A stretch of 5,808 nucleotides of DNA. Origin: a candidate division KSB1 bacterium. Lineage in GTDB: Bacteria; Zhuqueibacterota; JdFR-76; DREG01. The stretch is from NCBI GenBank assembly GCA_022566355.1, contig JADFJB010000186.1:1-5808 (forward strand), in the 5' to 3' direction. How positions within the stretch are numbered: the first letter of the stretch is position 1; each line of letters starts with the position of its first letter. This document shows, in pieces, positions 2,120 to 5,447 of the stretch. The notes under the pieces were generated by a model that worked only from the letters and a program-made list of their open reading frames with translations, had not been told where the DNA came from and ran no database searches. Both the position numbers and the translations under genes were made by a program.

Positions 2120-3223
2120 ATGAACAGGAAAAAATTAATCAAAAAAATGGCGTTACCGGCGGCAATTGTTTTCATGGTTTCGCTTAGTGTGGCAATTATT
2201 CAAACCCCTTACTGGAATAATAAATATAAACAACACCAGCAGAGATTGAATGAACATATAACAACGGTCACCGATCAAAATACCCAATATTTGACAGCAA
2301 CAGCAGAAAAAATAGGAGTGATTTCCAGGACACCGGAAAACGTAGCCGATAACCGGCTGATCAAAGTTATCCAATCCGAACTATTACTCGAACATCAAAA
2401 AGTGGATCAGGCAAAACGTTATCTTTGGATGAGCGACAACCGGGGCGAATTTATTTTTGGAGCGCCTTCCTATGCCTTTGTCCAGGTTAATAATGCCTAT
2501 GATAAAAATGCGGAAACCATCATCAAAGAAGGACTCTATAGCGACCGCAATGACTTTCTCCTTGATGTAATCGATCAGCACAATCAAGTTGATTTTGCGA
2601 ATGTTGATATTGGTAAAATTAAACAATTACACCAGGATGGAAGGGAGAGCAGCTGGTATTATACGAGAGATCGTGGTCTGATCTTATCAGCGCCTGTGGC
2701 CAATGAAGACGGACAGGTACAGGGAACCTTGTTTATAAAGATCGATGATTCGGCTAATCATGAAATGTACTACAGTAACAATAGGGCCCGGGGTGAAGAC
2801 GCATTTCTTGATTACCAGCCATTATTTATATTTTTTACGGTTATTTCAGGGTTTTTTCTCTGGTTTCTCTTACCCACCTGGGTCTATATTGATGCCCAAC
2901 AACGTGATGTGAACAATCCCGGTCTTTGGGCATTTATCACGCTTATTTCGTTGATATTCGGTCTCGCCATCTACATGATCACCAGGCCATCGACCATGCG
3001 CTCTCACCAATGTCCCCAGTGTGAAAACGAATTAAATGGCACTGGCACTTTTTGTCCGCACTGCGGCTTCGATTTGTCCAACACATATTGCCCGCAATGC
3101 CAGTATCCCATTAAACCGGATTGGACCTTTTGTCCGAGTTGCCGGGCAGGATTGGAGGAAAAAGAAGAATTACAACCGGTTGTCGAACCTGAACCTTCAC
3201 CTGAACCGGCGAAAGAAAAATAG
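2120..3223 (+). CDS. Membrane protein with Cache-like sensor region and two C-terminal zinc ribbons
   Basis: 367 residues. GGAG at 2111-2114, five bases before the ATG, supports this start. A basic N-terminus (RKKLIKK) precedes a membrane helix at about 11-27. Residues 30-232 form a soluble region with PAS/Cache-like features: YLWMSDNRGEFIFG (101-114), GLYSDRNDFL (138-147), and a closing pair of strands, LILSAPVANEDGQVQG (187-202) then TLFIKIDD (203-210). Two more helices follow (about 234-257 and 269-288), joined by a short loop with the VYIDAQQR motif. That motif is common in membrane proteins carrying zinc ribbons. Two ribbons follow, each made of two CPxC knuckles: Cys298/301 with 312/315, and Cys324/327 with 338/341. 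The protein ends in a Pro/Glu-rich tail (345-367). No kinase, cyclase or methyl-accepting domain is present. It may sense an extracellular ligand and could relate to the adjacent sigma/anti-sigma pair, but it is separated by 137 bases and the link is inferred. The partner and signal are unknown. Confidence 0.8.
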   Translation: MNRKKLIKKMALPAAIVFMVSLSVAIIQTPYWNNKYKQHQQRLNEHITTVTDQNTQYLTATAEKIGVISRTPENVADNRLIKVIQSELLLEHQKVDQAKRYLWMSDNRGEFIFGAPSYAFVQVNNAYDKNAETIIKEGLYSDRNDFLLDVIDQHNQVDFANVDIGKIKQLHQDGRESSWYYTRDRGLILSAPVANEDGQVQGTLFIKIDDSANHEMYYSNNRARGEDAFLDYQPLFIFFTVISGFFLWFLLPTWVYIDAQQRDVNNPGLWAFITLISLIFGLAIYMITRPSTMRSHQCPQCENELNGTGTFCPHCGFDLSNTYCPQCQYPIKPDWTFCPSCRAGLEEKEELQPVVEPEPSPEPAKEK

Positions 3224-3240
3224 GTGAACAACAAGGTTTA

Positions 3241-3258
3241 ACCGCGGAGAACGCTGAG
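3241..3258 (+). repeat. Fragment resembling a dispersed 'CGCGGAGAACGC' intergenic repeat
   Basis: ACCGCGGAGAACGCTGAG starts 17 bases after the zinc-ribbon gene stop and runs directly into the barrel-gene remnant at 3259. Short strings of this type (GCGGAGA.CGC.GAG) are familiar as dispersed intergenic repeats in environmental bacteria. This is recalled, not searched. Only one unit is present, so it cannot be proven as a repeat from this window. Confidence 0.35.
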
Positions 3259-3447
3259 TTGGAAATGTTTTCCAATATAAAAACCCTCAACGAAATTGAT
3301 GTGAATTGGAACACATTGATCAGCGCCAAAATCACCAAGCTGATTGCCGTCAATTTTAATGTAAAATTAATTTACGATCGCGATGTATCTGTCAAAAGGC
3401 AATTGAAGCAGGCATTGACAGTGAGGTTGACTTATACATTATTGTAA
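3259..3447 (+). pseudogene. 3' remnant of an outer-membrane beta-barrel gene (DUF3078-like)
   Basis: The 62 codons end at TAA 3445-3447. They read LEMFSNIK, EIDVNWNTLI, KLIAVNFNVKLIYDRDV, then QLKQALTVRLTYTLL. This is the typical C-terminal part of DUF3078-type barrels: 'DVNWE', alternating strands with 'LIYDdDv', and 'qlKe.l.vgl.Y.f' ending in an aromatic or hydrophobic last strand. Such proteins are normally several hundred residues long, with a signal peptide and a full barrel. Here everything before the last few strands is missing. The frame has no ATG start near a ribosome site; it would have to start at TTG 3259. The recognisable part begins exactly where the repeat-like string at 3241-3258 ends, suggesting a recombination breakpoint there. 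DUF481-like barrels are an alternative source. It is probably not expressed. Confidence 0.65.
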
Positions 3448-3456
3448 AAGCACAGA

Positions 3457-3471
3457 GCGGCCTTGGGCCGC
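3457..3471. other. GC-rich perfect hairpin
   Basis: GCGGCC-TTG-GGCCGC forms a perfect 6-bp stem with a 3-base loop in otherwise AT-rich DNA, 9 bases after the barrel remnant stop. No T-run follows on either strand, so it is not a standard terminator. It may be a leftover terminator stem or part of a REP-like repeat; its role is unknown. Confidence 0.4.
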
Positions 3472-3483
3472 GACCAAAGAATT

Positions 3484-3711
3484 TAGCCACGGATTTTCAC
3501 TGATTGACACTGATAAAATCCGTTTAGAAAAAAAAATTAAAAACCATTACATTCAATTTGAATTTATAGAAATGTTTTATGTTGAAAAAGTGAAATTAAA
3601 AGCTCCATTTATTAAATCCGTGTTTTATCCGTGTTCACCCTGTTAGATACAATTCTTTAGTATTTTCTGGTAAACTTGATGCTTTTATCTAACGGGGTGA
3701 ATCCGTGGCTA
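3484..3711. repeat. Inverted-repeat intergenic element bounded by TAGCCACGGATT
   Basis: TAGCCACGGATT (3484-3495) is repeated exactly and inverted as AATCCGTGGCTA (3700-3711), 12 of 12 bases. The left end continues as three 10-bp units, CACGGATTTT, CACTGATTGA and CACTGATAAA (3488-3517). The right half holds matching units in inverted orientation: AAATCCGTG and TTTTATCCGTG (3614-3633). The 228 bases contain no open reading frame of note and no transposase, so a non-autonomous (MITE-like) element or a pair of dispersed repeats in opposite orientation are both possible. 'GCCACGGATT..CAC.GAT' strings are familiar as dispersed repeats in environmental genomes, from memory only. No clear target-site duplication was found. 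Confidence 0.6.
3634..3701. repeat. 15-bp inverted repeat with 38-base loop inside the CCACGGAT element
   Basis: TTCACCCTGTTAGAT (3634-3648) pairs with ATCTAACGGGGTGAA (3687-3701). All positions are complementary except one T opposite G, which still pairs in plus-strand RNA as a wobble. The loop is 3649-3686. The long perfect stem suggests either a folded transcript or the remains of two repeat copies in opposite orientation. No T-run follows, so it is not a terminator. Confidence 0.7.
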
Positions 3712-3831
3712 TATTATTGTTTTTATTTAAAAGCCGTGTTGTTTGTTGATCTGTGACCTTTCGTAATACTCTTTGTTTTTAGATTGGTCTGACGGATTAA
3801 CTTATAGCGAATAGATGTATATGAGGTTGCT

Positions 3832-3885
3832 ATGCAAACAAAATTAACGTTACGAATGGAAGATAAATTAATCATCTGCTTTTGA
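3832..3885 (+). pseudogene. 5' remnant of a DUF6364-type antitoxin gene
   Basis: The ATG at 3832, preceded by GAGG (3823-3826) at good spacing, encodes MQTKLTLRMEDKLI and then ICF and a stop. The first 14 residues closely match the start of DUF6364 antitoxins, ribbon-helix-helix-like partners of PIN-type toxins that typically begin 'MqTKLTLRlDdeLI'. A full member is about 70-80 residues. Here homology stops at about 3873, and neither the rest of the antitoxin nor any toxin follows. The sequence immediately after reads sensibly only on the other strand, as the start of another gene. The ribosome site is preserved, so the loss is probably recent. Only 14 residues support the family call. Confidence 0.55.
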
Positions 3886-3921
3886 TTTTGGGACGACACC
3901 GTGCCAGGTTCGGGCAATCAT
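3868..3921 (-). pseudogene. 5' remnant of an ABM-type (antibiotic biosynthesis monooxygenase-like) gene
   Basis: On the minus strand the ATG at 3921 follows GGAGG (3926-3930 on the plus strand, read in reverse) with a 4-base gap. It encodes MIARTWHGVVPKSKADD and then meets a stop at 3868-3870. 'MIARTWHG.VP..KADdY..yL' is the characteristic opening of small ABM-fold proteins of about 100 residues. The sequence should continue with Y and a helix but ends after the second Asp, at about 3871. That is exactly where the opposite-strand antitoxin remnant also ends. The gene therefore lost about 80% of its length from its 3' side. A possible promoter lies upstream at 3978-4007. It is unlikely to make a functional product. 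Confidence 0.6.
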
Positions 3922-3977
3922 GGTACCTCCAATTTATTATTTTCCTAATGATGAATTAATACTGTTGGTTGAAGTAT

Positions 3978-4007
3978 ATTATAAAATATATTCCTTGATA
4001 ATAACAA
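3978..4007 (-). promoter_or_regulatory. Possible sigma-70-like promoter for the minus-strand ABM remnant
   Basis: On the minus strand TTGTTA (4002-4007) and TATAAT (3978-3983) are separated by 18 bases. The -10 lies 57 bases before the ATG at 3921. The -10 is a perfect consensus match, but the DNA here is AT-rich (a near-palindromic TATATT/AAATATA stretch), so chance is a serious alternative. Confidence 0.3.
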
Positions 4008-4017
4008 ACAAAAGTTA

Positions 4018-4038
4018 AATCTTTTCGAAGAGAAGATT
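4018..4038 (+). other. 9-bp hairpin upstream of mmuM
   Basis: AATCTTTTC-GAA-GAGAAGATT forms a 9-bp stem with one T-G wobble and a 3-base loop, ending 105 bases before the mmuM start. It is not followed by a T-run on the plus strand. It could be a leader structure or an operator. The 222 bases between the ABM remnant and mmuM contain no other gene, and I do not recognise a SAM or other methionine riboswitch. Confidence 0.35.
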
Positions 4039-4131
4039 ACTTTAAAGCTTGGACTCATTGGATTTTATTGCTCGTAATTATTTACAGAAAATGCCAATTC
4101 CTTTAAATTGAAATTAAAAATGTTGCACTTT

Positions 4132-4137
4132 GAGAAG
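4132..4137 (+). promoter_or_regulatory. Ribosome binding site deciding the mmuM start
   Basis: GAGAAG lies 6 bases before ATG 4144. The other possible starts in frame, TTG 4108 and ATG 4120, have only A/T-rich DNA upstream with no ribosome site. Confidence 0.6.
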
Positions 4138-4143
4138 AATAAG

Positions 4144-5118
4144 ATGCCAAGTCAATCACCCATTAATCCATTTCTGCAGAAACAAGGATTTGTTCTGTTG
4201 GATGGCGGTCTGGCCACGGAATTGGAACGCCTGGGCCATAATCTAAATCATCGGTTGTGGTCTGCACGCTTGCTGATGAACAAGCCAGAAGAAATCCGCA
4301 AGGTTCATTTATCCTATCTAAAAGCAGGATCTGACTGCATTACTTCTGCCAGTTACCAGGCGAGTGTTCCCGGTTTTATATCAGAAGGGAAAACAGAGAA
4401 GGAGGCAAAATCTCTTTTAAAAAGCGCCGTAGAACTGGCTTGTGAAACCCGTGATGACTATTTTCAAAGTTCTAAGTTTCAACATAACTATCGAATTCGT
4501 CCTATTGTGGCAGCGAGTATCGGACCGTACGGAGCGTATTTAGCCGATGGCTCAGAATATACGGGAAATTATGGGATTTCAACTAGTAAGCTGCGTGCTT
4601 TTCATAACCCCCGTTGGGAAGTGCTCGCAGATTCTTCCGCAGATATATTTGCCTGCGAGACAATCCCTAGCCTCCAAGAAGCTGAAGTATTGCGGGAATT
4701 GCTATCTGAGACGCCAGACATTTATGCCTGGATCAGCTTTTCCTGTAAAGATGAAAAGGACATAAGTGATGGTACGACCCTGAAAGAGGCCGTCTCTCTA
4801 TTTGAAAATTGCCAACAAGTTGTAGCCGTCGGAATAAATTGTACGGCGCCGCGATATATTTCATCTTTGATTGAAGAGGCACAACGAGGAGCACCGACCA
4901 AATCAATCATTGTATACCCGAATTCAGGAGAGATTTACGATCCGATCCGAAAAATTTGGATCGGGACATCCGATCCCATGGATTTTAGTAAAGCAAGTCT
5001 GGATTGGTATGATCAGGGAGCGTCATTGATTGGTGGTTGTTGTCGAACAGGTCCTCATCATATTAAAGCGATGAGGGAAGCTTTATTGGAGACGAATTTG
5101 GGAAAATTACACAACTAA
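4144..5118 (+). CDS. mmuM: Homocysteine S-methyltransferase
   Basis: 324 residues. The enzyme transfers a methyl group from S-methylmethionine (or S-adenosylmethionine) to homocysteine, giving methionine; it is cytoplasmic and zinc-dependent. It matches the MmuM family over its full length as a TIM barrel. DGGLATELE at 20-28 is the opening strand, with DGG at the same residue numbers as DGA in the E. coli enzyme as I recall it. SYQAS is at 70-74 and GPYGAYLADGSEY at 127-139. The zinc ligands are Cys233 in GINC (230-233) and the Cys pair 299-300 in GGCCR. YPNSGE (258-263) is also conserved. All catalytic motifs are intact. The start at 4144 is chosen for its ribosome site and because it aligns the N-terminus with the family; the frame is open upstream to TTG 4108. 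No S-methylmethionine permease is nearby, so the gene is probably monocistronic, and regulation is not visible. Betaine-homocysteine methyltransferase is a more distant relative and less likely. Confidence 0.95.
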   Translation: MPSQSPINPFLQKQGFVLLDGGLATELERLGHNLNHRLWSARLLMNKPEEIRKVHLSYLKAGSDCITSASYQASVPGFISEGKTEKEAKSLLKSAVELACETRDDYFQSSKFQHNYRIRPIVAASIGPYGAYLADGSEYTGNYGISTSKLRAFHNPRWEVLADSSADIFACETIPSLQEAEVLRELLSETPDIYAWISFSCKDEKDISDGTTLKEAVSLFENCQQVVAVGINCTAPRYISSLIEEAQRGAPTKSIIVYPNSGEIYDPIRKIWIGTSDPMDFSKASLDWYDQGASLIGGCCRTGPHHIKAMREALLETNLGKLHN

Positions 5119-5267: not shown

Positions 5268-5447
5268 ATGATTGAAATAGAAGAAAAAACAGATAGTTCG
5301 CCTATGTGCCCTTTTTGCAAAGTTGAGGTAAAAAAAGTCTTCTACCAGAAAATGGCTGGTTTTTTTGGCAAACGATATATTTATTTTTGTGAGCATTGCA
5401 AATCGATTTTAGGCGTATCCCAGCGTAAAGGATTTTGGATGGGTTGA
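5268..5447 (+). CDS. Small zinc-ribbon protein (59 residues), function unknown
   Basis: The ATG at 5268 follows AGGAG (5257-5261) with 6-base spacing inside a run of A, an excellent ribosome site. The frame ends at TGA 5445. Two CxxC knuckles, Cys14/Cys17 (CPFC) and Cys41/Cys44 (CEHC), are separated by 23 residues holding KVFYQKM and FGKRYIYF, as expected for the strands of a zinc ribbon. The acidic N-terminus (EIEEKTD) is probably flexible. The C-terminus, ILGVSQRKGFWMG, looks conserved: I associate 'LGV..rKGFWMG' endings with small uncharacterised zinc-ribbon proteins, but I cannot name a family. It has no signal peptide or membrane helix and is presumably cytoplasmic. It lies 149 bases after mmuM with a weak hairpin between them, so it is probably transcribed separately. 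At this size it is easily missed by gene finders. Confidence 0.75.
   Translation: MIEIEEKTDSSPMCPFCKVEVKKVFYQKMAGFFGKRYIYFCEHCKSILGVSQRKGFWMG

Follow-up and report, generated by a model that had tools for sequence, protein, structure and literature searches.

The DNA analysed here (the window) is an entire contig, C186, 5808 bases long, of a 4.6 Mb draft genome that comprises 213 contigs, is 98.5% complete and is the sole member of its genus in the compared set. An intergenic stretch of about 0.9 kb, between a zinc-ribbon gene and a methyltransferase gene, holds the remnants of two gene starts that face each other. The features of the window are as follows:

154-678: protein without known family, 174 residues
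922-1488: ECF-type sigma factor
1491-1982: membrane protein, from its position and sequence probably an anti-sigma factor
2120-3223: zinc-ribbon membrane protein
3259-3447, plus strand: 3′ remnant of a DUF3078 outer-membrane-type gene
3451-3756, plus strand: multi-copy dispersed repeat lacking its usual right end
3785-3831, plus strand: probable promoter/operator of the antitoxin remnant with its ribosome site, decayed
3832-3873, plus strand: 5′ remnant (14 codons) of a DUF6364 antitoxin gene
3869-3876, no strand: putative junction, TAATCATC
3869-3921, minus strand: 5′ remnant of a MIARxWHG-type gene (ABM superfamily)
3922-4010, minus strand: region upstream of the ABM remnant
4153-5118: homocysteine S-methyltransferase
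5268-5447: zinc-ribbon-like protein, 59 residues

Translation of the plus strand from 3832 gives MQTKLTLRMEDKLI-ICF*, preceded by a GAGG ribosome site. After the 14 antitoxin codons the frame crosses the junction for three more codons and ends at a TGA (3883-3885); at 17 codons in all, it encodes no full-length DUF6364 protein with a C-terminal part. The Pfam DUF6364 profile (PF19891) aligns with the peptide from profile position 1, over positions 1-15 of 70 (E 0.0039), and the score of 18.1 bits stays under the curated cut-off of 27.3 because the peptide is truncated. A profile built from relatives also matches over positions 1-15 (E 1.7e-4; conditional E 5.3e-7 per frame fragment), and this is its sole match in the six frames of the window. 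The protein match is mirrored in the DNA: 38 of the 45 bases at 3832-3876 (84%) are identical to the start of L027, the closest intact DUF6364 gene in the phylum, which begins MQNKLTLRMDEKLIFRAK. The DUF6364 gene L013, from the same family as the genome of the window, begins MQTKLTLRLDGDLINKAK. In the 44 bases before the antitoxin ATG, 27 are identical to L013, a level reached by none of 20,000 shuffles, so the promoter region of the antitoxin was probably retained too; relatives carry ACGT/TACGTA motifs in this upstream region. The remnant thus resembles DUF6364-PIN_3 systems (PF19891 and PF13470) in its start codon, in the N-terminal MxTKLTLRxDxxLI and in its DNA, but it keeps 14 codons only and is followed by no toxin gene: directly downstream there is no PIN gene, and contig C186 has no PIN_3 match anywhere. 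A match of 14 residues is the weaker of the two when taken alone, and the assignment leans on the protein match, the DNA match, the ribosome site and the upstream similarity together.

The minus strand, read from 3921, gives MIARTWHGVVPKSKADD*, with GGAGG just before the ATG. The stop comes after 17 codons; the remnant consists of these and two bases of the next codon, and reads TAA instead of TAY. An ABM profile built from relatives matches over positions 1-17 (E 1.3e-7), again as the sole match in the six frames, and 41 of 51 bases are identical to L073, an intact ABM gene of the same phylum. By tblastn the peptide aligns with plasmid genes over their first 16-17 residues. In each of the three plasmid records opened, the alignment sets in precisely at the annotated start codon; two of the three are annotated 'antibiotic biosynthesis monooxygenase', an annotation that some MIARxWHG-type proteins carry. 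Intact relatives are about 100 residues long, and two that were scanned scored 20.4 and 18.6 bits vs. a curated cut-off of 23.1 for Pfam ABM. Searches of Pfam, NCBIfam and PDB with the 17-residue peptide gave no match, as is expected at such a length. The ABM match by itself is convincing against chance. The likeness to MIARxWHG-type proteins covers the first 17 residues, the start site and the ribosome site, whereas the remnant keeps only 17 of about 100 codons; a complete protein is not encoded here and no further part of it was found in the genome. The sigma-70-like matches upstream, at 4007-3978 and 4001-3973 on the minus strand, are not above chance (three promoter-like sites found, 2.5 expected). 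The two starts, of 14 DUF6364-type and 17 ABM-type residues, are accordingly encoded as the preliminary description had them, each behind the ribosome site that it claimed.

Both homologies end within the same 8 bases. The antitoxin remnant is collinear with L027 as far as ...AAATTAATC (3873), and the ABM remnant with L073 to GATGATTA; read on the plus strand, this is TAATCATC (3869-3876). Given these limits, the two homologies overlap on TAATC (3869-3873), and at least these five bases fit both inferred parents. In a random junction of the window's base composition, a shared run of at least 5 bases has a probability of about 0.006, and one of at least 3 a probability of 0.06. The overlap is suggestive of a microhomology of about 5 bp at the junction, the parents being reconstructed from the alignments. 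The common end point had been noticed before and placed at 3871-3876, which is slightly too narrow, as the ambiguous junction extends over about 3869-3876; the shared sequence proposed there stands as well, only as TAATC rather than ATC.

The simplest reading of 3832-3921, and probably the right one, is that it is the scar of a single deletion between two convergent neighbouring genes. In the ancestor, the plus strand would have carried a DUF6364 antitoxin gene, presumably with a PIN_3 toxin gene behind it, and the minus strand a small gene of the ABM superfamily pointing towards the antitoxin gene. A single deletion that began in one of these coding regions and ended in the other would have cut the antitoxin gene after codon 14 and the ABM gene after codon 17, taking with it any toxin gene that lay between. 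The two 5′ ends would then have been joined at TAATC/TAATCATC, a short shared sequence in keeping with either end joining or replication slippage. The remains, two 17-codon open frames whose start sites are intact, are most likely non-functional. That both gene starts are present, that they share an end point and that the missing parts are not found in the assembly are observations; we infer that the genes were adjacent and convergent with the toxin between them, in which case one event would be enough. The reading draws on the similarity of the two remnants to intact genes of the phylum (80-84% in DNA) and on their stopping at the same point. Against it stand the lack of any genome found with the intact convergent arrangement, the shortness of the antitoxin match (14 residues) and the origin of the window as one 5.8 kb contig in a draft genome. 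The single deletion had been proposed at the outset, and its shared truncation point and the failure to find the 3′ parts elsewhere in the genome bear it out in part, but no relative with the two genes as convergent neighbours came to light.

The intact DUF6364 genes L013 and L027 are both directly followed by genes for PIN-domain-like proteins, the L027 pair scoring as DUF6364 and PIN_3. The single DUF6364 match in the window's own genome, on contig C105, is a distinct, intact paralogue with a PIN_3 gene of its own. As the PIN gene lies just 3′ of the antitoxin in all three, the lost segment is where a toxin gene would be expected. The toxin proposed there earlier is in keeping with these pairs, but the arrangement with convergent neighbours was found in no relative. 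It is reasonable that a viable deletion should need the joint loss of toxin and antitoxin. A stronger version holds that the deletion was selected for, or made possible, as a way to lose an addiction module cleanly in one step, and that antitoxin starts fused with an unrelated gene are traces of a recurrent exit route of toxin-antitoxin pairs; this is very improbable.

Several other members of these families were seen along the way. The C105 pair (locus L097), which adjoins an apparent gamma-glutamyltransferase-type gene, lies between two direct copies of a 69-base repeat that are 93% identical (1154-1222 and 1965-2033), of the kind ...GTGAAAATTCGTGTACATTTGTGGC..., and may have arrived, or may exit, by recombination between the two copies. 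Comparison of L097 with itself also indicates a longer direct repeat, with 667-base copies at 98% identity (1-667 and 2676-3342). The genome has two partial PIN_3 genes, L102 (C47, about 1486-1672, in a reversed locus) and L101 (C188), one matching only the first 50 profile positions and the other only the last 68. Another decaying copy is L014 (G035:C33), a DUF6364 gene that is interrupted by an in-frame TAG stop and lacks an ATG where one is normally found.

The surroundings of the two remnants are themselves made of truncated pieces: three or more truncated genes lie within about 0.9 kb (3223-4150), together with a shortened repeat. The DUF3078 remnant is 54-62% identical to the C-terminus of the proteins of the closest relatives. 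Most of the ten relatives searched have an intact DUF3078 protein of about 290-320 aa, and in the window's genome it occurs as C-terminal pieces only, in the window and on C20 (G000:C20:24408-24551), the two sharing no DNA match. The dispersed repeat is found at eight places counting the window, the seven others being on C1, C3, C12, C18, C25, C114 and C144. It has inner inverted ends (GCCACGGATTTTCACTGAT ... AATCCGTGGC) and variable inserts, and looks like a small non-autonomous element. Most other copies run on into a common segment of about 40-65 bases that the window copy lacks; an island inserted into the repeat was considered and rejected, as the missing right end does not recur further right in the window. 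Such a neighbourhood supports genome erosion, and the site is an ordinary scar of gene loss. With deletion scars and pseudogene remnants in eroding intergenic regions it shares the abrupt common end of homology, the short microhomology and the truncated genes nearby; it differs from them in that two 5′ ends face each other, and the junction is unusually easy to read.

The intact arrangement was sought in relatives. It was found neither in 82 genomes of the phylum, a set that holds no second genome of the window's genus, nor in five further ABM loci, nor by a DNA search of 39 related genomes. Among the 82 genomes the ABM start pattern occurs in the window alone; in the genome collection it was met at five loci, and the DNA fetched for these contains no DUF6364. 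No fetched locus besides the window has DUF6364 together with an ABM gene of this type. The zinc-ribbon gene is conserved in both same-family genomes (two genera, the only close relatives), and the DNA after it differs in each. On the right, the homocysteine S-methyltransferase has no ortholog in 12 relatives and no match in the genome collection, so the two halves of the locus may come from different places. A literature search gave no paper naming DUF6364 and nothing specific on such scars.

These results keep a second explanation in view beside the deletion. Illegitimate recombination, or insertion of foreign DNA, may have joined loci that never were neighbours, one break truncating the resident antitoxin gene and the incoming segment, itself broken inside an ABM gene, bringing the ABM start and perhaps the methyltransferase gene. 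If one side of the junction had once been distant, or had come in from elsewhere, the result could not be told from a deletion scar. The methyltransferase (4153-5118) without ortholog in the 12 relatives, the differing DNA downstream of the conserved zinc-ribbon gene and the adjoining truncated repeat are what this explanation would lead one to expect. Two breaks must then, however, have left the starts of two genes opposite one another and sharing about 5 bp, and a deletion needs fewer assumptions. We rate the recombination as unlikely, though, with flanks that differ, a neighbour without ortholog and no locus carrying both families, as a serious competitor, and hold to the deletion as the probable event.

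The fate of the missing 3′ parts bears on a third explanation, an inversion between two co-directional genes. Its geometry alone would yield exactly such a start-to-start junction, since it sets the start of one gene against the reverse-complemented start of the other, but the 3′ parts of both should then be joined at the other end. The intact ABM protein L066, used as query against the window's own genome, gave no match at E 0.01, not even to its 3′ half; a two-domain ABM protein on C18 (identified with Pfam) is a distant paralogue. No headless DUF6364 was found before any PIN_3 gene in this 98.5%-complete genome; beside its other PIN_3-type genes, the antitoxins are of other kinds or none is recognisable. 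In the absence of another ABM part and of a headless DUF6364-PIN_3 pair, the sequence appears to have been lost, not inverted away. An inversion or a balanced exchange is therefore disfavoured; the inversion is improbable, and its other end would have to have been lost later or to lie in a gap.

An artificial join of two unrelated places in assembly is conceivable for a draft in 213 contigs in which the window is a whole 5.8 kb contig, but the 5-8 bases shared at the join are far under an assembler overlap and neither half is present elsewhere in the assembly, which makes it very unlikely. That one or both short frames resemble these families by chance, for which the shortness of the antitoxin peptide and its Pfam score under the cut-off might speak, is hardly credible, as the alignment with each family sets in precisely at the start codon, and ribosome sites, DNA identity and upstream similarity go with it.

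In closing, the probable deletion by itself means little: it would add a further example to the scars that genome erosion leaves. A large collection of them would allow one to ask whether toxin-antitoxin pairs go in single steps that remove both members at once, as the need to avoid free toxin would lead one to expect.
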